Below, in pieces: positions 41,005-50,654 of a DNA stretch of 64,000 bases. Source of the stretch: Tidjanibacter sp. (GTDB lineage: Bacteria > Bacteroidota > Bacteroidia > Bacteroidales > Rikenellaceae); assembly GCA_017466345.1 (NCBI GenBank), contig JAFTUI010000024.1:62001-126000 (forward strand), read 5' to 3'. A program made the position numbers and the translations under genes. Position 1 is the first letter of the stretch. Every line of letters begins with the position of its first letter. The notes beneath the pieces were generated by a model. It was not told the DNA's origin and made no database searches. It saw only the letters and a list, made by a program, of their open reading frames with translations.

Positions 41005-41793
41005 ATGTACGAAAAGAAACTCGAAGCCGCAGCGCGACTGTTGGAGGTTATGGACACACTGAGGGAAAAATGCCCCTGGGATAGAGAGCAGACCTTCGAC
41101 AGCCTCAGGAGCAACACCATCGAGGAGTGTTTTGAGCTCACAGACGCCATTGCGGATCACAATATGGAGGGCATACGCGAAGAGTTGGGCGATGTGCTGT
41201 TGCACATTGTCTTCTACTCCAAGATGGGCGAAGAGATGGGCGCATTCGACTTTGCGGACGTATGCAACTATCTCTGCGATAAGCTTATCTATCGCCACCC
41301 CCACGTCTATGGCGATGTTCACGCCGACAACCCCGAAGAGGTTATCCACAATTGGGAAATGCTCAAACTGCGCGAAAAAGCCAAGAAAGAGCGCAAAGCA
41401 GCAGGTGGCGTGCTCTCTGGCGTACCTCGCTCGTTGCCCGCAATGGTCAAGGGCTATCGTATAGGCCAAAAAGCAGCCTCGGCAGGCTTCGATTGGGAGC
41501 AGAAAGAGGATGTATGGGCTAAGGTCAAGGAGGAGATTGAGGAGGTAGAAACCGAAATTAGGAACGGTAATAAGGAGGGTATTGAGGAGGAGATTGGCGA
41601 CCTCTTCTTCTCGCTCATCAATGCTTCGAGGCTCTATGGTGTAGATCCCGAAACCGCATTAGAGCGCACCAACAAGAAGTTTATGGCGCGTTTTTCGCAT
41701 ATCGAGCAGGGCGCAGCAAAGATGGGCAAAACCGTTGGCGAGATGACCCTCAATGAGATGGAAGCCCTCTGGCAAGAGGCAAAGAAAAATTGA
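41005..41793 (+). CDS. mazG: nucleoside triphosphate pyrophosphohydrolase MazG
   Basis: 262 residues with two MazG domains. The first has LREKCPWDREQTFDSLRSNTIEECFEL and the EExxE...ExxD metal site ELGDVLLHIVFYSKM; the second has EEIGDLFFSLINASRLY. Hydrolyses aberrant (d)NTPs to monophosphates. Standard length. The stop codon is embedded in the heptad repeats before the next gene. Confidence 0.96.
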   Translation: MYEKKLEAAARLLEVMDTLREKCPWDREQTFDSLRSNTIEECFELTDAIADHNMEGIREELGDVLLHIVFYSKMGEEMGAFDFADVCNYLCDKLIYRHPHVYGDVHADNPEEVIHNWEMLKLREKAKKERKAAGGVLSGVPRSLPAMVKGYRIGQKAASAGFDWEQKEDVWAKVKEEIEEVETEIRNGNKEGIEEEIGDLFFSLINASRLYGVDPETALERTNKKFMARFSHIEQGAAKMGKTVGEMTLNEMEALWQEAKKN

Positions 41794-41809
41794 AAATTGA
41801 AAATTAGAA
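41789..41809 (+). repeat. 7-bp tandem repeats (AATTGAA x2 + variant) before the carbonic-anhydrase-like gene
   Basis: AATTGAA AATTGAA AATTAGA runs from the mazG stop to 3 nt short of the next ATG (41813). The same heptad family precedes ddl on the other strand. Confidence 0.7.
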
Positions 41810-41812
41810 TAT

Positions 41813-42361
41813 ATGGCTGTAATTAAGAGTGTTAGGGGTTTTACCCCAAAGATTGGTAAGGGCACGATGGTGGCTGAGAATGCTACGATTGTGGGCAATG
41901 TAGAGATTGGCGAGGATAGCAGCGTATGGTTTGGTGCTGTTATTCGTGGCGATGTGAACGCTATTCGCATCGGTAAGAGGTGCAACATTCAAGATGGAGC
42001 GTGTCTGCACGCCACCTACGACCTCTCGCCCCACCCTTCGGTAACTATTCTGGGCGACAATGTGAGCGTAGGTCACAACGCCATCATTCACGGTGCGCAG
42101 ATAGGCGATGGTTGCCTTATTGGTATGGGTGCAACCGTACTCGACAATGCTAAGGTTGGCGAGGGTTGCATCATCGCTGCCAACGCTTTGGTGCTTTCGG
42201 GTGCAGTATTGGAGCCCAACGGACTCTATGCAGGTGTGCCCGCCAAGAGGCTCAAAGAGGTAACACCCGAACAGAGGGTAAATACCTTGGAGCGTACCAC
42301 ACGCGACTATATGCACTACGCATCGTGGTTCCCCGAATACAACATCGACAATAAGCAGTAG
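41813..42361 (+). CDS. gamma-carbonic-anhydrase-like hexapeptide-repeat protein (YrdA/PaaY type)
   Basis: 182 residues of left-handed beta-helix: hexapeptide repeats from about residue 20 to 150 (MVAENATIVGNVEIGEDSSVWFG). The histidines that bind metal in gamma-carbonic anhydrases are present in the SVGHNAIIHGAQIGDG region. Homologues show weak or no carbonic anhydrase activity, so the reaction is left open. Confidence 0.9.
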   Translation: MAVIKSVRGFTPKIGKGTMVAENATIVGNVEIGEDSSVWFGAVIRGDVNAIRIGKRCNIQDGACLHATYDLSPHPSVTILGDNVSVGHNAIIHGAQIGDGCLIGMGATVLDNAKVGEGCIIAANALVLSGAVLEPNGLYAGVPAKRLKEVTPEQRVNTLERTTRDYMHYASWFPEYNIDNKQ

Positions 42362-42421: not shown

Positions 42422-43630
42422 ATGACACATCCCAGACAATATCGCAAAGTGGCTATAAACTGCCTTATTGCCATAACCATATCTTTGGTGATGAACTTCT
42501 CCTATTTGGTGTTTGTGATGATCGGCGAGGACCGCGAGCCCGCGCCTAAGCACCCCATAAAGCCCAAGACCGAGCAGATTGTGAAGGACAAGTATAGTGG
42601 CGAAGAGGCGCAACTATCGCAAGAGGAGAGCGACACTCAAAAGGCTGAGGTTATTATTCGCGAAGAGAGCATATTGCGCCAAAGTCGTCAGCGCAACGAC
42701 ACACATCCGATGGCGACATCGCGTGGCAATCTCTTTATGGGAATAGACATACTCTTTTATATAATTGTGGCGATGCTCTTCCTGAGCATTATGACCAACA
42801 CAAGGCGACATCAACAAAATCGTTGGGTGCGCAGACTCTTGATGTGTGCTGTTGTGGCGGTGTTTGCTTATTTTCTATCTCCGCAGATGACTTGGAGGGG
42901 CGAGATTATATTGAACGCCTATGCCCGCCACCTATTCAACCCTATGACGATGCTCAAACTATCTACCACACTGATAGTCTGCGCACTCTATGGTAAAATC
43001 TACGAGCTTCTCTATGCCAAGCAAGAGGTTGAGATGGAGAATGAGAGGCTCAAAAACGAAAATCTCACTTGGCAGTATAACACACTCGTAAATCAGGTTA
43101 ATCCCCACTTCCTCTTCAACTCGCTCAACTCACTCTCTATGCTCGTAAGGGAGCACAAAACCGATGATGCAGTAACCTACATCGGGCAGATGAGCGACAC
43201 ATACCGCTATATTCTAGAGGAGGGACAGGTAGAAAAGACCACCGTAGGCGAGGAGTTGCGCTTTGTGGAGGCTTACGGTTACCTCTTGGAGATACGCTAC
43301 GCAGGCAAACTGCGCATCGTAACAAATGTCAGTGAGGAGTATCTTTCGTGGCAGATGCCCCCACTCTCCATTCAGCCACTCATTGAGAATGCTGTAAAAC
43401 ACAACACCATAACCACCTCGTTGCCTATGGACATTGAGATTTCCGCCGAGGAGGGCTATATTGTTGTACGCAACCCCATACATCCAAAACTCCAAGCCGA
43501 GGAGAGTACGGGTATTGGTCTGAGGAACCTTTCGAGCCGCTACGAGCTCATCGTGGGACGCAACATAGAGGTAGAGGCGAACGACAACCTCTTTGTGGTC
43601 AAACTACCATTAATAGCACCGCAGAAATGA
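42422..43630 (+). CDS. LytS-type sensor histidine kinase
   Basis: 402 residues. Four membrane helices (about 13-37, 100-120, 138-155, 178-198) with an extracytoplasmic charged loop (40-98) between the first two. A coiled coil (200-222) leads to the HisKA_7TM-less His_kinase domain: NQVNPHFLFNSLNSLS contains the phospho-accepting His, then QPLIENAVKHN and a degenerate GxGLRNL nucleotide-binding end (STGIGLRNLSSRYEL). Its last codon overlaps the response-regulator start (ATGA). The input signal is unknown. Confidence 0.93.
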   Translation: MTHPRQYRKVAINCLIAITISLVMNFSYLVFVMIGEDREPAPKHPIKPKTEQIVKDKYSGEEAQLSQEESDTQKAEVIIREESILRQSRQRNDTHPMATSRGNLFMGIDILFYIIVAMLFLSIMTNTRRHQQNRWVRRLLMCAVVAVFAYFLSPQMTWRGEIILNAYARHLFNPMTMLKLSTTLIVCALYGKIYELLYAKQEVEMENERLKNENLTWQYNTLVNQVNPHFLFNSLNSLSMLVREHKTDDAVTYIGQMSDTYRYILEEGQVEKTTVGEELRFVEAYGYLLEIRYAGKLRIVTNVSEEYLSWQMPPLSIQPLIENAVKHNTITTSLPMDIEISAEEGYIVVRNPIHPKLQAEESTGIGLRNLSSRYELIVGRNIEVEANDNLFVVKLPLIAPQK

Positions 43631-44370
43631 AAGCCATAATCATAGAAGACGAAACCGCTGCAAGTCGCAACCTGAAAGTGTTGCTTGCCTCCACACACCC
43701 AGAGATTGACGTCATTGCCACCTTGGAGAGTGTGTCCGAGAGCGTGGAGTGGTTTGAACACAACGAGGCTCCCGACCTTGTTTTTATGGATATTCATTTG
43801 GCTGACGGAAACGCCTTTCGCATCTTCGACAAAGTAACCATCTCGGCACCTATAATCTTCACAACCGCCTACGATCAATACGCTTTGGAGGCTTTCAAGG
43901 TAAATAGCATAGACTACATCCTCAAACCAATCAAACAAGAGGATTTGGAGAGGGCTGTGGCTAAATTCTCCTCACTCACACATATAGCCCAAGCCGACTA
44001 CTCGCGCCGCGTGAGTCAGATGGTTGAGCAGTCGCGTGCCAAGAGGGTATTGGTACATATTAAGGACAAGATTTTGCCGATTGGCGAGGAGGATATAGCC
44101 TTCTTCTACACCTCCAACGAGCAGGTAACACTCTCCACGCTCGATGGCAAACTCTACCCCACCAACGGTACCCTCGAAGGACTCTATGGGGAGTTTGCAG
44201 GCGAGCATTTTTTCAGAGCAAACCGCCAATTCATCATCGCCCGTAAGGCCATACGGGATATTTCGGTGTGGTTTGGTGGCAGGCTTGCTGTGAACCTCTC
44301 GGTAGCAACCCCAGAGCGAATTATCGTTAGCAAAGCCCGCGCCTCGGAATTTAAGGCGTGGTTGAAGTAG
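43627..44370 (+). CDS. LytTR-family response regulator
   Basis: 247 residues: receiver domain 1-120 with the phospho-acceptor Asp in DLVFMDIHLADG and the conserved Lys in DYILKPIKQEDL; LytTR DNA-binding domain at about 145-245 (HIKDKILPIGEEDIAFFYTSNEQV, HFFRANRQFIIARKAIRDI). LytTR proteins bind pairs of 9-10-bp direct repeats spaced about 21 bp apart; such a pair lies 27 nt downstream of this gene. Confidence 0.95.
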   Translation: MKAIIIEDETAASRNLKVLLASTHPEIDVIATLESVSESVEWFEHNEAPDLVFMDIHLADGNAFRIFDKVTISAPIIFTTAYDQYALEAFKVNSIDYILKPIKQEDLERAVAKFSSLTHIAQADYSRRVSQMVEQSRAKRVLVHIKDKILPIGEEDIAFFYTSNEQVTLSTLDGKLYPTNGTLEGLYGEFAGEHFFRANRQFIIARKAIRDISVWFGGRLAVNLSVATPERIIVSKARASEFKAWLK

Positions 44371-44396
44371 CATCATTCCGCCCTCTCGAAGAGGTC

Positions 44397-44466
44397 ATTT
44401 CACCCCCAAATTTGGGCGTTTCACCCCTATGGCGAACTCTTTTACGAGTTCGCTGTACTATTTTTG
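44397..44466 (+). promoter_or_regulatory. candidate LytTR operator and promoter of the Cys-repeat gene
   Basis: ATTTCACCCC (44397-44406) and GTTTCACCCC (44418-44427) are direct repeats exactly 21 bp apart, two helix turns, as LytTR dimers need. Downstream a perfect dyad GCGAACTC-N6-GAGTTCGC (44432-44453) covers the -33 region, and TATTTTTG (44459-44466) matches the -7 box. No -33 TTTG is seen, which suits an activator-dependent promoter. The dyad could instead be a weak terminator of the regulator gene. The link to this regulator is inferred from position and spacing. Confidence 0.55.
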
Positions 44467-44513
44467 TACCGCAGACAAGAAAAATGTTAGCCAATCATAA
44501 AAAACGAAGCATT

Positions 44514-45260
44514 ATGAAAACTATCCAGAAACTCACGATTGCAGCTGTGGCTATCGTATCGATGAACTCGTGCTGCGCACAGAACGACAAACCTAAGTTC
44601 GATGCCAAGGAGTACGCCAAACACAAAACCGAGCGTATCGACAACATTGTTGAACTCTCGGACGCTCAGGAGAAAGAGGTGTATGCTCTCTATCTTGCAC
44701 AGGGCAAAGAGATAAAGAAGAATATCAAAGCAGCCAAGAAAGAGTGTGGCGAAATGAAACGCCCCGACTGCAAAAAAGCAGAGGGTTGCGACAAGGCAAA
44801 GTGCGATAAGCCCTGCCCAAAGAAAGCAGAGGGTTGCGACAAAGCAAAATGCGACAAGCCCTGCCCCAAGAAAGCAGAGGGTTGCGACAAAGCAAAGTGC
44901 GACAAGCCCTGCCCCAAGAAGGCAGAGTGCTGTGACAAAGCAAAATGCGACAAGCCCTGCCCCAAGAAAGCAGAGTGCTGCGACAAAGCAAAGTGCGATC
45001 AGCCCTGCCCCAAGAAGGCAGAGTGCTGTGACAAAGCAAAGTGTGACAAGCCCTGCCCCAAGAAAGGCGAGTGCGCTAAGCCTCATAAGCCTATGCGCCG
45101 CCACCACTTCGTGTCGCCCGAATCGAAAAAAGCAACCTTCGAGAAGCTGAACACTATCCTCACTCCTGAGCAGAGTGCGAAACTTAAAGAGCTTCACACC
45201 AAACGTCACTCTCATTGCTCCGGGGGCAAAGAGTGCATCCCTACCCCCGCAGAGAAATAA
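44514..45260 (+). CDS. periplasmic CpxP/Spy-like protein with cysteine-rich tandem repeats
   Basis: 248 residues. I chose the Met at 44514, which opens a lipoprotein-like signal (MKTIQKLTIAAVAIVSMNSC, Cys20). Two helical segments flank the repeats: residues about 40-75 (NIVELSDAQEKEVYALYL) and 200-235 (FEKLNTILTPEQSAKLKEL), which look like the LTxxQ helices of CpxP/Spy chaperones. Between them (87-182) are six 16-residue repeats of the form KKAE(G/C)CDKAKCD(K/Q)PCP with 21 cysteines and strong net charge. Metal binding or redox buffering is likely but unproven. His-rich patches follow (RRHH, HSHCSGGK). It is preceded by a LytTR pair and followed by an outer-membrane barrel gene. Confidence 0.75.
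   Translation: MKTIQKLTIAAVAIVSMNSCCAQNDKPKFDAKEYAKHKTERIDNIVELSDAQEKEVYALYLAQGKEIKKNIKAAKKECGEMKRPDCKKAEGCDKAKCDKPCPKKAEGCDKAKCDKPCPKKAEGCDKAKCDKPCPKKAECCDKAKCDKPCPKKAECCDKAKCDQPCPKKAECCDKAKCDKPCPKKGECAKPHKPMRRHHFVSPESKKATFEKLNTILTPEQSAKLKELHTKRHSHCSGGKECIPTPAEK
44772..45059 (+). repeat. six 48-bp tandem repeats (Cys-rich units)
   Basis: Six in-frame 48-bp units, plus a partial seventh (45060-45074). Units 1-3 carry three Cys, units 4-6 four (Gly to Cys change after Glu). Near-identical DNA suggests recent expansion. Confidence 0.92.
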
Positions 45261-45311
45261 ATTTTCAAACACCCCCCCACTCAATTTATATAGTAGTTAG
45301 TCAGGAACGAG

Positions 45312-48200
45312 ATGAAGAGAATAATCTTGTTTATAGGATGTGTTATTTTGGGCATTGGTTTCGCCTTTGCCCAAAATAGCGGCATTCTCAAAGCGACACT
45401 CAAAGATAGCAAGAGTGGCGAGGGTATCAATGGCGCTGTCATCGAACTTACCTCTTCTGCCAATGGCAAGTCACAGTACTACACGAGTGGCTATCAAGGT
45501 AAAGTCGAGATCAAAAACCTTACCCCCACCACATACAATATGACCATTACCTTCTTGGGCTACAAGGAGTACACCAAGAGGGTAAAAATCGGTGCAGGCG
45601 TAAACAACCTCGGTGCGATAAAATTAGAGGAAGACGCCACCATCATTGAGCAGGTAGAGATTAATGGCTTTTTGGGCACTTCGACCAAAGGCGACACCGT
45701 AAGCTACAACGCTGCGGCATTCAAGACCGTACGCGATGCGAGCGTAGAGGGTTTGCTATCCAAGATGCCAGGCATTACCGTAGGTGGCGATGGATCGGTA
45801 ACAGCTCAGGGCGAGAGTGTCGAGAAGGTATTTGTGGATGGCAAAGAGTTCTTTGGCGAGGACGTATCAACAACCATCAAAACCATCCCTGCCGAGATGG
45901 TATCTAAGGTGGAGGTCTATGATAAACTCTCCGACAAGGCAGAGTTTACGGGTTTGGACGATGGCGAGGGCTATAAGGCTATCAACATCGTAACCTCACT
46001 CGGCAAGCGCCGAGGTGTCTTTGGCAAGGTCTATGGCTCATACGGTTACCCCGACAAATATAGCGTGGGTGGCAACGCCAACCTCTTCAATGGCGATGAG
46101 AAGATTTCGATTATCGCTATGGCTAACAACATCAACCAACTCAACTTCTCGTTTGAGGATATTGTTGGAGCCACCTCATCTGCAAACGTAGCCTCTTCGG
46201 GAGGTGGCGGTGGAGGTATGCACGGAGGAGGCGGTATGCGTCAGGCCCGCAACTTTATGGTGCGTCCTATGTCGGGCATTTCCACTGTGCAGTCTGTTGG
46301 TGTGAACTACGCCAACCAATGGGATAAGTTGGAGGTGCAGAGCAGCTATTTCTTCAACCACTCCACAACCATCAACGAGAATACCACAGACAAGACCATC
46401 CTTAGTAGCGACTCCTACAAGGAGCACTCGCTGAGCGAGAGTAGTTCCGATGGCGAGAACTGGAACCACCGTCTGAATTTGCGTCTGGACTATAAGTTCA
46501 GCAAGAGCAGCTCGCTGATGGTGCGTGCCAACGCCAGCTTGCAACAATACGAGAACACCATAATAGGGTCGGAAAATATCAGCAACGCCGCAACGGGCGA
46601 GGCTCTAAAAAGTATGACCTCCGAGAACAACGATGAACGCATCGGTACATACGGTAACATCTTCGCTCTCTACCGCACACGCTTGGGCAAACCAGGTAGG
46701 ACCATTACGGTAAATTCGAGGGTTAATTGGAACTCCAACGAGAGTCACAACATTCCCCTTTACAGTTTTACCATTCCTACCGACTCGCTCTATCAGAACA
46801 TAATAGACAACCTCAGTGGTAGCAACTCTTTCCGTGCCGAGGCGACCTATACCGAGCCCCTCAGCAAGCAGGTACAGATGGACTTTGAGTATGAATTCCG
46901 CCACAATATGGACAACCAGAACAAGGTGGCTCAGGTGTGTATCAACAATGTGGAGGACAAGACGCTCAGCACCCTACTCTCCAACATCTCCGAGAGTGGC
47001 TATACCATCCACCGAGTAGGTCCCGGCATTAACCTCTCGACCGACAAGGTTAAGTTCAACGCACAGGTGAGGTATCAGTACTCTTCGTTGGATAACTCTC
47101 AGACACTGCCCAAAGAGTTGTCGCAGTCCTACAATTTCAATGATGTAACCTATCGTGGCAACCTGACGGTCAACTTCAACCAGACTAACTCGCTGAGAAT
47201 GAGGCTACACTCACGCACGCAAAATCCCTCTATCGGTCAGTTGCAAGATGCTACGGACGTCAATGGTACGAGTTTTACAGCGGGTAATCCCGACCTCAAA
47301 CCGAGCTACACTCACAGCCTTATGACGTTCTACACCAATACGAACATCGAGAAGGGACAAACCTTTATGTTGCACGGTGGTATGTGGCTTACGACAAGGT
47401 CTATTGCCTCGTCTATTCAGATAAACAACCCCGCATTTACCAATCCCGTGACGGGTATGCCTTTGGGGGCGGGCGAGACATATAGTCGCTACGAGAATAT
47501 CTCAGGTTGGAACAACTGGAACATCTTTACGGGTGTGAGCTATGGCTTCCCACTGACTGCTCTCAAAAGCAACATTACGCTGTCACTCAACGCCAACTTC
47601 AACAACACTCCGAGCAAGATCAACGACTACCTGAACATTATGAAGGGTCAGTACTACACATCGGGTGTGCAGATTGGTAGCAATGTGAGCGAGAATTTGG
47701 ACTTTACGCTGGCTTACAATTTCAGCTACTCCATCAACGACAACTCTTCGGCTATCTACTCGCAGCTCAATAGGTACCTGAGCCACAATGCAAGGGCGAA
47801 CTTCAAATGGGTGGCTTGGAAGGGCTTTACGCTGACAGCAAATGCCACCTATAACCAATACAAAGGCATTACCGACAGCTACAACGAGGAGATATTGCTC
47901 TGCAACGCCTATATAGGCAAAAAACTCTTCAAGGACGAGCGTGGCGAGCTGAGCATTGGCGTGAACGACATTTTCAACCAGAACCGCGATTTCCGCCGCT
48001 CGGTAGGTGCGAACTACATCCAGAACACCACCAACCTCGCCATTGGCAGATATGTTGCAGTGCAGTTTGTCTACAACATTCGCGCATTTGGCAACGGGTC
48101 TTCGGCAAAGGATTTCGATAATATAGGTATGGGGGGTGCTTCACGCGGAGGCTTTCCTGGTGGTGGTCGCCCAATGGGTCCCCCACCCCATATGAGATAG
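45312..48200 (+). CDS. TonB-receptor-like outer membrane beta-barrel protein
   Basis: 962 residues. Signal peptide (MKRIILFIGCVILGIGFAFA), a carboxypeptidase-regulatory-like domain (about 22-110, NSGILKATLKDSKSGEGING), a plug-like region (about 115-225 with EGLLSKMPGITVGGDGSV and VEKVFVDGKEFFGED), then an OMP_b-brl_3-type barrel. A glycine/methionine/histidine loop (GGGGGGMHGGGGM) is inserted near residue 300 and the end is GGRPMGPPPHMR. No clear TonB box is visible. Ligand unknown; Met/His-rich segments would fit metal or peptide. Its start is 51 nt after the Cys-repeat gene with no terminator between, so they probably share one mRNA. Confidence 0.85.
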   Translation: MKRIILFIGCVILGIGFAFAQNSGILKATLKDSKSGEGINGAVIELTSSANGKSQYYTSGYQGKVEIKNLTPTTYNMTITFLGYKEYTKRVKIGAGVNNLGAIKLEEDATIIEQVEINGFLGTSTKGDTVSYNAAAFKTVRDASVEGLLSKMPGITVGGDGSVTAQGESVEKVFVDGKEFFGEDVSTTIKTIPAEMVSKVEVYDKLSDKAEFTGLDDGEGYKAINIVTSLGKRRGVFGKVYGSYGYPDKYSVGGNANLFNGDEKISIIAMANNINQLNFSFEDIVGATSSANVASSGGGGGGMHGGGGMRQARNFMVRPMSGISTVQSVGVNYANQWDKLEVQSSYFFNHSTTINENTTDKTILSSDSYKEHSLSESSSDGENWNHRLNLRLDYKFSKSSSLMVRANASLQQYENTIIGSENISNAATGEALKSMTSENNDERIGTYGNIFALYRTRLGKPGRTITVNSRVNWNSNESHNIPLYSFTIPTDSLYQNIIDNLSGSNSFRAEATYTEPLSKQVQMDFEYEFRHNMDNQNKVAQVCINNVEDKTLSTLLSNISESGYTIHRVGPGINLSTDKVKFNAQVRYQYSSLDNSQTLPKELSQSYNFNDVTYRGNLTVNFNQTNSLRMRLHSRTQNPSIGQLQDATDVNGTSFTAGNPDLKPSYTHSLMTFYTNTNIEKGQTFMLHGGMWLTTRSIASSIQINNPAFTNPVTGMPLGAGETYSRYENISGWNNWNIFTGVSYGFPLTALKSNITLSLNANFNNTPSKINDYLNIMKGQYYTSGVQIGSNVSENLDFTLAYNFSYSINDNSSAIYSQLNRYLSHNARANFKWVAWKGFTLTANATYNQYKGITDSYNEEILLCNAYIGKKLFKDERGELSIGVNDIFNQNRDFRRSVGANYIQNTTNLAIGRYVAVQFVYNIRAFGNGSSAKDFDNIGMGGASRGGFPGGGRPMGPPPHMR

Positions 48201-48240: not shown

Positions 48241-48313
48241 ACCATTCGCAGACGAGAGAAAGCGAATGGTTGGGCGGAGGGATTTTTGTGGTTGCCCTCC
48301 GCCCGTTTTTTTT
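48241..48313 (+). terminator. tandem hairpins ending the LytTR-controlled operon
   Basis: First hairpin ACCATTCGC/GCGAATGGT (48241-48270). Second GGGCGGAGGG/CCCTCCGCCC (48272-48304), followed by T8. The second is a classic intrinsic terminator. Confidence 0.9.
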
Positions 48314-49187: not shown

Positions 49188-50654
49188 TTATTTCATCTTC
49201 TCGATGCCGAGGATACCATCGCGAGTCATAACCACTCGGAAGCGGCGCAGCGACACATCTGAGCCATCAGTGAGTTGCATCACTATATTGATATAGTATA
49301 TCTTCTGCACCTTGACGGTAGTGAGGTTGCCATCCGAGCCGAGCGTATCAACGGGCACTTCGGGATTGTCCATCTTCTGCGTGAAGCGGTGCATATGGAA
49401 GCGCAAAATCTCGTTAATGCCATTGACCGTATAGACACTCGCCGCACTAAGTTGCTCGTTGTCAATCACAACTCGCTTGCGGTAGAGCAGAATTTTCTCC
49501 TCGAATATCTTATTCTCTGCCTCCACCAACGAGGAGCGTCCCCTGAGTTCCATAACCTCCTTAGGAGTCTTATGTTCGCTAATGAAGTCCACACCCTCCT
49601 TGATGACACCCACAGACTTGTCGTGAATTCTAACCTCCGCCTTGTTGTCGAAATACTTATTGCCGAGTCGGTGGGCAAAGTAGTAGCGCATAAGGTCTTT
49701 GATGCGGTCTTTGAGCATATAGCTAACCACCAGCACCACAAACAGCGGGCCCGTGATGTTGCCATATTTGAGTTGCGCAAACCACGCCACAGCAGTAGCA
49801 AAAATCATCGCTAAGCCTGCCGCAAGGCTATAATAGACCTGTTCTACTGCAAAACCATCGCGTTTCTTGTTGAGTTTTATGTAGAGTTCGCTCTCAACAT
49901 ACTTTTTCAGCAGTCCATAGCGGAACACGAGCGCACGATTACCCACAGCATCTTCGGGCTCCAAAAGTTCATACCCCTGCGAGAGTTTGTAGCTCTTCTC
50001 GGAGCGCAGCAAGCCAACCAACTTTTCGCGGATCGGGGCAAGCGACTTATCTCCAAATGAGTCAATATGTTTAACAACCCTAATGCTCTGCACATCAACA
50101 ATATGACTCATTATTTCATCGCCAAAAAGATAGTAGTTCCTAAGGCGTTGTTCTACCGTTGGGACATTGATGGTTTGATAGAGTCGGCGGTACTCCCCCT
50201 CTATTGCCCTCACACTTGCCACAAAATCGTCCGTAAGGTAGCCAATCTCATTGGCACTCTCCGACTTGGTAATATGTATCGAATGGTTGCGCAGTGCGCT
50301 CTTGAAAATTGCCACAAAGAGCTTAATCTGCGACTCGTAGTTCTCCTGATTTACTGCCGAAGGTTGGATTGCCAAACGCTCCAAAGCTCCGCGCAAAGTG
50401 ACAAAAGGCAGTGACGCAGGCTCGGCGAGTTCGCGAAGCAGGTAGACGGGCGTAATGAGCCTTACGTTCGACTTTATATCGCGGTAGAATTGGTCTTTAC
50501 CGTAGGTTTGCGGGTTAATATCGAGGCTATTAGGTACAAAAATCCACGAATTGACCACAAACTCGTGGCGTCCGACCTCTTCGTGGTTGCCCTCGAAACC
50601 GAACTTAAACTCAACCGAGAAATTATCGTGTTTTTTGGCGTGAATGTTTATCAT
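49188..50654 (-). CDS. hypothetical protein with two central membrane helices
   Basis: 488 residues, not recognised. A soluble N-terminal part of about 265 residues (FGFEGNHEEVGRHEFVVN early; a helical RNYYLFGDEIMSHIVD stretch) is followed by two closely spaced membrane helices at about 270-315 (LAAGLAMIFATAVAWF and ITGPLFVVLVVSYML), then a soluble C-terminal region of about 170 residues that looks beta-rich. Both soluble parts should be cytosolic. It has its own terminator. No neighbour suggests a role. Confidence 0.7.
   Translation of the reverse strand: MINIHAKKHDNFSVEFKFGFEGNHEEVGRHEFVVNSWIFVPNSLDINPQTYGKDQFYRDIKSNVRLITPVYLLRELAEPASLPFVTLRGALERLAIQPSAVNQENYESQIKLFVAIFKSALRNHSIHITKSESANEIGYLTDDFVASVRAIEGEYRRLYQTINVPTVEQRLRNYYLFGDEIMSHIVDVQSIRVVKHIDSFGDKSLAPIREKLVGLLRSEKSYKLSQGYELLEPEDAVGNRALVFRYGLLKKYVESELYIKLNKKRDGFAVEQVYYSLAAGLAMIFATAVAWFAQLKYGNITGPLFVVLVVSYMLKDRIKDLMRYYFAHRLGNKYFDNKAEVRIHDKSVGVIKEGVDFISEHKTPKEVMELRGRSSLVEAENKIFEEKILLYRKRVVIDNEQLSAASVYTVNGINEILRFHMHRFTQKMDNPEVPVDTLGSDGNLTTVKVQKIYYINIVMQLTDGSDVSLRRFRVVMTRDGILGIEKMK

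Follow-up and report, generated by a model that had tools for sequence, protein, structure and literature searches.

Spy and CpxP of Escherichia coli (Protein Data Bank (PDB) entries 3oeo and 3itf) consist of two LTxxQ-type helical hairpins and are controlled by Cpx and Bae, with CpxP reporting to CpxA. Bacterial metallothioneins and Csp-type copper stores hold many closely spaced thiols in small or four-helix folds, and kinases of the LytS/YpdA type carry 5TMR_LYT or GAF as the sensor domain. Here we compare such systems with a four-gene locus of Tidjanibacter sp. (Rikenellaceae), located in a 64,000-nucleotide stretch of contig JAFTUI010000024.1 (hereafter the window) of a 1.82-Mb genome. 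The locus encodes a sensor kinase, a LytTR regulator, a Spy-like protein bearing a dense array of cysteines and lysines (the Cys protein) and an outer-membrane barrel. It appears to be a new variant, an envelope response under LytTR control whose Spy-type protein acquired thiols in a single clade. None of the papers listed by our literature search describes this gene arrangement.

According to the sections of the source used here, LytTR regulators recognize repeats of 9-11 nucleotides (nt) separated by 11-13-nt spacers, and YpdB of the E. coli YpdA/YpdB pair binds GGCATTTCAT repeated at 21 bp and has a single target gene (PMC4847170). The excerpted account of LytTR regulatory systems describes direct repeats spaced ~12 bp, located 5′ of the promoter, and autoregulation (PMC6193735). 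The genes of the Tidjanibacter locus run in the order kinase, regulator, Cys protein and barrel, followed by a strong terminator. An ATGA overlap joins the kinase and regulator genes, and all parts lie where a preliminary description of the window had placed them.

42422..43630, + strand: sensor histidine kinase of the LytS/YpdA type (PF06580; Pfam His_kinase 3.6e-21; hydropathy and an alignment of 21 kinases)
43627..44370, + strand: LytTR response regulator with receiver and LytTR domains (Pfam Response_reg 4.4e-14, LytTR 2.5e-15; tree)
44394..44427, + strand: candidate LytTR operator, repeats GTCATTTCACC / GGCGTTTCACC with a 21-bp period; unique in window and genome, present in relatives, resembling the YpdB site as given in the sections used of PMC4847170
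44428..44457, + strand: 12-pair hairpin between operator and promoter element (-16.3 kcal/mol, z -6.4; terminator-like by listing)
44459..44466, + strand: TAnnTTTG promoter -7 element, TATTTTTG, 31 bp 3′ of the operator and 5′ of the Cys gene
44514..45260, + strand: Spy/CpxP-like (LTXXQ/DUF4890 kin) probable lipoprotein with Cys/Lys array (profile of array-free Spy proteins, E 3.3e-10; AF2 helices)
44772..45059, + strand: six 16-residue repeats of the KKAE(G/C)CDKAKCDKPCP type, in the loop between two predicted helical hairpins (TRF; unit comparison; AF2 pLDDT <50 for residues 78-198)
45312..48200, + strand: TonB-dependent-transporter-like barrel of 962 amino acids with carboxypeptidase-regulatory-like and plug-like domains (Pfam; Foldseek Cir 4e-18)
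48272..48313, + strand: intrinsic terminator, a 10-pair G+C stem followed by G and eight T (folding)

The proposal that these genes form one circuit, made in the preliminary description, is supported by the linkage of regulator and barrel genes in many relatives together with a LytTR-type operator near a promoter element before the Cys or Spy gene, the barrel or the kinase. The candidate operator, found where a regulated-looking promoter had been described, is a 34-bp direct repeat whose 10-nt repeats and 11-nt spacer fit the LytTR repeat rule. Its pattern matches once in the 64-kb window and in none of 100 shuffles, and no second operator of this type lies within the window. The whole genome likewise holds one site at up to 3 mismatches (reversed-pattern controls, 0), which rules out a large regulon for this operator type in this genome.

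The operator shares its core and 21-bp period with the site reported for YpdA/YpdB in the sections cited, and one operator in the genome stands beside the single YpdB target gene given there. The predicted targets here are a Spy-like protein and a transporter-like barrel instead of the MFS protein YhjX, and the window kinase, unlike YpdA, has no further sensor domain in Pfam. A site before the kinase gene in some relatives resembles the autoregulatory arrangement in the excerpted account of LytTR regulatory systems, although the locus employs a kinase-receiver pair.

TAnnTTTG is the -7 consensus of Bacteroidota promoters. In the clade of ten genomes that carry the Cys protein, GTC(A/G)TTTCACCCC-type repeats with a 21-bp period are present in 10/10, with small changes that are most numerous in G020, and the TAnnTTTG element lies exactly 31 bp 3′ of the operator in every one. 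We extended the comparison to 26 operator sites from 24 genomes, chosen by operator similarity and not by spacing. These sites precede a Cys or Spy gene, a barrel or a kinase (one, in G008, is at a contig end), and in 24 of the 26 the spacing to the element is 30 or 31 bp. The exceptions are G025, where a third repeat intervenes and the element lies at 52 bp (31 + 21), and a G031 site that lacks TAnnTTTG.

The hairpin between operator and -7 element perhaps ends the kinase-regulator transcript. Among nine relatives folded at this position, strong hairpins that differ in sequence occur in G019, G020 and G021, and folding in the other six is about equal to that of their shuffles. The strong terminator reported earlier downstream of the barrel is borne out by two hairpins in that region (-35.5 kcal/mol, z -4.0). 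Elsewhere in the genus, G012 and G006 each have a second operator-like site before a similar protein (L121:1501-1532; L111:1501-1532, minus strand), which in G012 matches Esterase and CBM48; this gene is a possible extra regulon member.

Conservation of the locus was examined in 24 genomes of its genus (G000-G023), in 13 members of other Rikenellaceae genera compared for linkage (G024-G036), and in a second genus, where 61 genomes were searched and 30 loci of best matches were read. Linkage between regulator and barrel was seen in five genera examined, often with an array-free Spy gene. The order MazG, hexapeptide, kinase, regulator, barrel is kept in eight array-less genomes of the locus genus (G001, G004, G006, G007, G011, G012, G015 and G016), where 8-323 bp separate regulator from barrel and neither a Cys nor a Spy gene intervenes. 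G017 has an inverted kinase-regulator pair, still linked but on the opposite side of the barrel. An array-free Spy gene follows the regulator in G002, G025 and G026; the G002 protein has a few Cys and His residues, and its contig stops before any barrel. In the second genus the barrel occurs in 56/61 genomes. Among its best-match loci the regulator precedes the barrel in 30/30, a Spy gene recognized by profile lies between them in 14/30, and an operator is present in 29/30, often one before Spy and one before the barrel. The Spy gene of G031 is unlinked and carries a triple operator-type repeat, and G033 (81% complete) retains Spy and barrel genes but lacks an operator as well as any regulator match at E<=1e-40.

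The Cys array is characteristic of a single clade of ten genomes. The Cys protein is present in 10/24 genomes of the locus genus, and the regulators of those ten form a single clade (10 rows, 100/99); G010, whose locus is broken by contig ends, is a likely eleventh member. The four genes exactly as in the window are kept together in this clade only, and elsewhere the third gene is array-free or missing. Across the Rikenellaceae the Cys-protein profile matched in 27/269 genomes, the ten clade members and 17 others. Those of the 17 that were read in frame comprise seven array-free Spy-like proteins and four Cys arrays, which sit on other scaffolds or at the edge of a contig.

The Cys protein has 248 amino acids and 28 Cys. 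Its start was set at ATG 44514 because the signal peptides of relatives align there, although a longer open reading frame (ORF) begins at an upstream GTG. The preliminary description of a CpxP-like protein around six Cys repeats agrees well with our results. A profile made from five array-free Spy-like proteins of other genera matches the window protein with E values of 3.3e-10 (residues 1-94) and again 3.1e-4 (residues 174-232), and in a PDB search the same profile finds E. coli Spy (9.8e-8) and CpxP (1.1e-3), indicating sequence kinship to this family. The window protein itself falls under the Pfam cut-off (19.8 versus 24.3 bits) and its relative L061 exceeds it (33.5). Among ten relatives scanned, DUF4890/LTXXQ is above cut-off in 3/5 array-free and 1/5 array-bearing proteins. 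The AF2 model has helices at residues 31-46, 50-79, 202-215 and 218-233, mostly with pLDDT of 83-95, and no order between residues 78 and 198 (pLDDT <50); the whole-protein mean is 53, with 161/248 residues below 50. Foldseek and VIA searches with this low-confidence model gave no Spy chain among the matches listed, and phmmer of the Cys protein against the PDB gave 0 at E<=1. Compared with Spy and CpxP, the protein adds a Cys/Lys array of ~110 residues between the predicted hairpins as well as a lipobox, and it is associated with a LytTR system rather than Cpx or Bae.

The protein, described earlier as periplasmic, has a signal peptide that ends in a lipobox-type Cys in 9/9 readable N-termini, so the product is probably a lipoprotein. 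The residues after this Cys do not match the surface-export signal C-X-K-(D/E)2 given in the cited section (PMC5080379), and an inward-facing lipoprotein is thus likely, not certain.

The array is under purifying selection. TRF reports a 48-bp unit in 6.3 copies (44771-45074), and 24/28 Cys sit in residues 78-187. Comparison of the window units gives synonymous differences of 0.49 per site and nonsynonymous differences of 0.024 (pN/pS ~0.05, by simple counting over fifteen non-independent unit pairs). These values rule out a chance repeat or fresh slippage and identify the array as a selected protein sequence rather than DNA noise. Cys makes up 18-22% and Lys 28-34% of the array in 7/7 complete proteins (that of the window and those of six relatives), and most Cys spacings are 3-6, while unit type and Cys number (21-36) vary; the Cys proteins of G014, G020 and G023 are cut by contig ends. 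A search of 24 genomes (15 from the locus genus) detected neither VKOR nor DsbB, whereas among 14 control genomes it was positive in 3 and 6, respectively. The array thiols are therefore probably reduced, although other oxidants may be present. Such closely spaced thiols resemble those of metallothioneins and Csp-type stores, but here they are predicted to reside on an exported, probably lipidated Spy scaffold, and the window Cys protein has no metallothionein among its Pfam or NCBIfam matches at E<=0.1.

Arrays of this kind also occur on different scaffolds within one family, as seen in L214 and L215. The lipoprotein-like ORF L214:1501-2259 (minus strand) has a META domain (PF03724) and a Cys/Lys-array tail; L215:1-249, at the edge of its contig, is the final part of a further Cys array. 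In genus g39, L218:1384-1743 is a stand-alone, lipoprotein-like Cys/Lys-array ORF with 20 Cys in a 120-residue frame and no Spy helices, for which NCBIfam gave nothing at E<=0.01. An MFS-type transporter (PF07690; L217:670-2448) contains a long inserted Cys/Lys/Glu array, with 32 Cys in frame. Three Spy-like proteins (L224:1450-1896, L228:1264-1863 and L185:2586-3113) have short Cys/His-rich tails or heads and are possible halfway states towards an array. A second Spy-like protein of G026 (L078:5044-5622, minus strand) has a Gly/Met/Arg-rich repeat in the loop equivalent to that of the Cys array.

The kinase and regulator form a two-component pair in which, by Pfam, a PF06580 kinase adjoins a receiver-LytTR regulator. 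Neither 5TMR_LYT nor GAF is among the Pfam matches of the window kinase at E<=0.1, and thus it is not LytS sensu stricto. Hydropathy and the alignment of 21 kinases place a 73-residue loop between predicted membrane helices 1 and 2. This first outer loop has 72-102 residues in 8/8 Cys-clade kinases measured. The array-less kinases have 20-26 residues in 10/13 cases and 134-137 in two, with one not measurable. By analogy with CpxP, the enlarged loop of the Cys clade perhaps allows the Cys protein to report its own metal load to the kinase. In G031 a 781-aa ORF lies between kinase and regulator (L080:6833-9178, minus strand).

The barrel is predicted to have a TonB-type outer-membrane barrel fold. 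Pfam OMP_b-brl_3 matches at 2.4e-22 (80 bits, cut-off 27), while TonB_dep_Rec_b-barrel (25 versus 27 bits) and Plug (17.9 versus 23.9 bits) remain below cut-off. By sequence the protein matches only two N-terminal domains of solved proteins. Foldseek returned 238 PDB matches at E<=0.001, with Cir, PhuR, ChuA, FhuA and other importers leading among the matches listed, where superposition is loose (TM 0.24-0.38 on the query, root-mean-square deviation >10). The earlier suggestion that the barrel moves something across the outer membrane may hold on the basis of this modeled fold. Its Gly/Met/His insert and tail, noted in the preliminary description, were dropped as candidate metal sites: a Gly-rich insert and a Gly/Pro/Arg-rich tail are present in barrels of relatives without the Cys protein, and these features are therefore no evidence for metal.

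A lead towards metal comes instead from more distant relatives of the regulator. In G055 and G032 the related kinase-regulator pair comes after genes for a CusB-like protein and for a CusA/CzcA pump that carries a fused outer-membrane efflux domain, the pump taking the place of Spy and barrel. These pumps score 1098 and 1117 bits with TIGR00914, whose cut-off is 701. A CDF exporter comes next in G055. G055, G032 and G047 form a 99/99 clade within a 35-row regulator group from which the window genome's paralog at C25 is excluded. The window-type operator was not found in the CusA stretches read from G055 and G032, and a crude search for repeats with a period of 20-22 at the CusA and G029 loci gave none convincing.

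Together with gene order, operator geometry and uniqueness, Spy kinship, array selection and transporter fold, all read from sequence, these observations lead us to favor a dedicated envelope-sensing two-component circuit whose thiol array soaks up a thiophilic metal, a reading to which we give an even chance. The membrane kinase would read a signal, probably on the periplasmic side, and activate the LytTR regulator, which would bind the repeat pair 21 bp apart just 5′ of the promoter and turn on one small transcription unit for the Spy-like lipoprotein and the TonB-dependent transporter. The Spy-like part, with its two helical hairpins, would hold a flexible loop of 21-36 closely spaced, lysine-flanked thiols that stay reduced, as disulfide-forming machinery seems absent, and, at the outer membrane, could sequester thiophilic ions such as Cu(I), Zn(II) or Cd(II). 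We infer the inducing signal, the regulator's activation of the unit, the lipid anchor, the binding of metal and the cargo of the transporter. The metal or thiol role suggested in the preliminary description thus gains from selection on the array, its probably reduced state and the two CusA/CzcA operons, and loses the barrel features as evidence.

Several observations weigh against this proposal. TonB-type transporters belong to an importer family, an odd component for a detoxification unit, and the varying length and spacing of the array speak against a metal cluster of fixed form. An array-free Spy, or no Spy at all, is the rule in most relatives read, making thiol metal binding unlikely as the original purpose of the circuit, and among the 13 members of other genera the regulator-barrel link occurs only in G025, G026 and G031. 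Long kinase loops are also present in G006 and G012, both of which lack the Cys protein. A Gln lies 2-4 residues past the first Cys in 6/9 N-termini, so that ordinary signal-peptidase cleavage remains compatible under the Q-rule as excerpted (PMC5837995).

In the 61 genomes covered by counts with mismatches, the pattern at <=3 mismatches gives 31 matches versus 13 for reversed controls, and this loose pattern is therefore not specific; all 18 matches with <=2 mismatches fall in Rikenellaceae genomes. Scores of the sites in G001 (4.7), G004 (3.6), G015 (5.6) and before the G031 Spy gene (1.2) are within the range of the best scores in shuffled 100 kb (up to 6.3), and hence these four count only for place and spacing, although the last was additionally found by pattern at 2 mismatches. 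In the second genus the TAnnTTTG element is at 29-31 bp in only 20/29 loci with a site, at 52-53 bp only in 2/29, and absent in 7/29. The 35-row regulator group has support of only 90/83, no firm inner order, and an excluded paralog that is a long branch. Other relatives lie beside multidrug-type pumps (G029, by best NCBIfam match, below cut-off; G035, by eye), and the CusA link is thus only suggestive, with metal a lead and not proof.

General envelope chaperoning is the main rival to metal buffering, though we consider it doubtful. Here the kinase would sense folding stress in the outer membrane or periplasm, the Spy-like chaperone would serve misfolded outer-membrane proteins or the barrel, and the array would have a non-metal role. 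Spy kinship, the array-free Spy in the equivalent slot of several relatives and the usual position of the locus beside an outer-membrane barrel all favor this explanation, but it leaves unaccounted for both the selection for 21-36 thiols in one clade and the similar arrays on other scaffolds of the family. An unlikely alternative is metal acquisition, in which the transporter would bring in a metal complex when metal is scarce, to be received and stored by the Cys protein in the periplasm. The barrel does resemble TonB-dependent importers and lies after a candidate metal binder, and the window offers no second site of this operator type; however, the two more distant regulator relatives accompany metal exporters, and most of the barrels read in this group have no array-bearing partner. 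Also unlikely is a thiol or sulfur buffer handling oxidants, polysulfide or electrophiles, and not metals, in the anaerobic gut. The dense, probably reduced thiols and the abundance of gut sulfide favor it, but Pfam shows no redox-partner domain among the four proteins.

If metal buffering by the array is correct, the Cys protein would be an exported metal sponge on a chaperone fold. More tentatively, it could be a chaperone-metallothionein hybrid, in which a Spy-family lipoprotein gained an expandable thiol array in its inter-hairpin loop and an older LytTR envelope switch became a metal-buffering switch in one clade. The comparison proposes an operator and a target set, a Spy/DUF4890 protein plus a TonB-type barrel, for a LytTR system that is shared by at least five genera within a single family of gut bacteria, and the same circuit with and without the thiol array offers a natural experiment.

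Among other features of the window, PADLOC matched 0/3 proteins, and a 488-aa protein at 49188-50654 (minus strand) gave nothing in Pfam at E<=0.1 or in NCBIfam at E<=0.01. Genes for a MazG-like pyrophosphohydrolase and a hexapeptide-repeat protein lie 5′ of the kinase (41005-42361), as in most genus relatives read, with no evident functional tie to the circuit. Barrels similar to that of the window were found at nine named loci, all in Tidjanibacter or Rikenellaceae assemblies; eight of these loci (two from one assembly) come from ruminant gut samples, and for one no sample is named.

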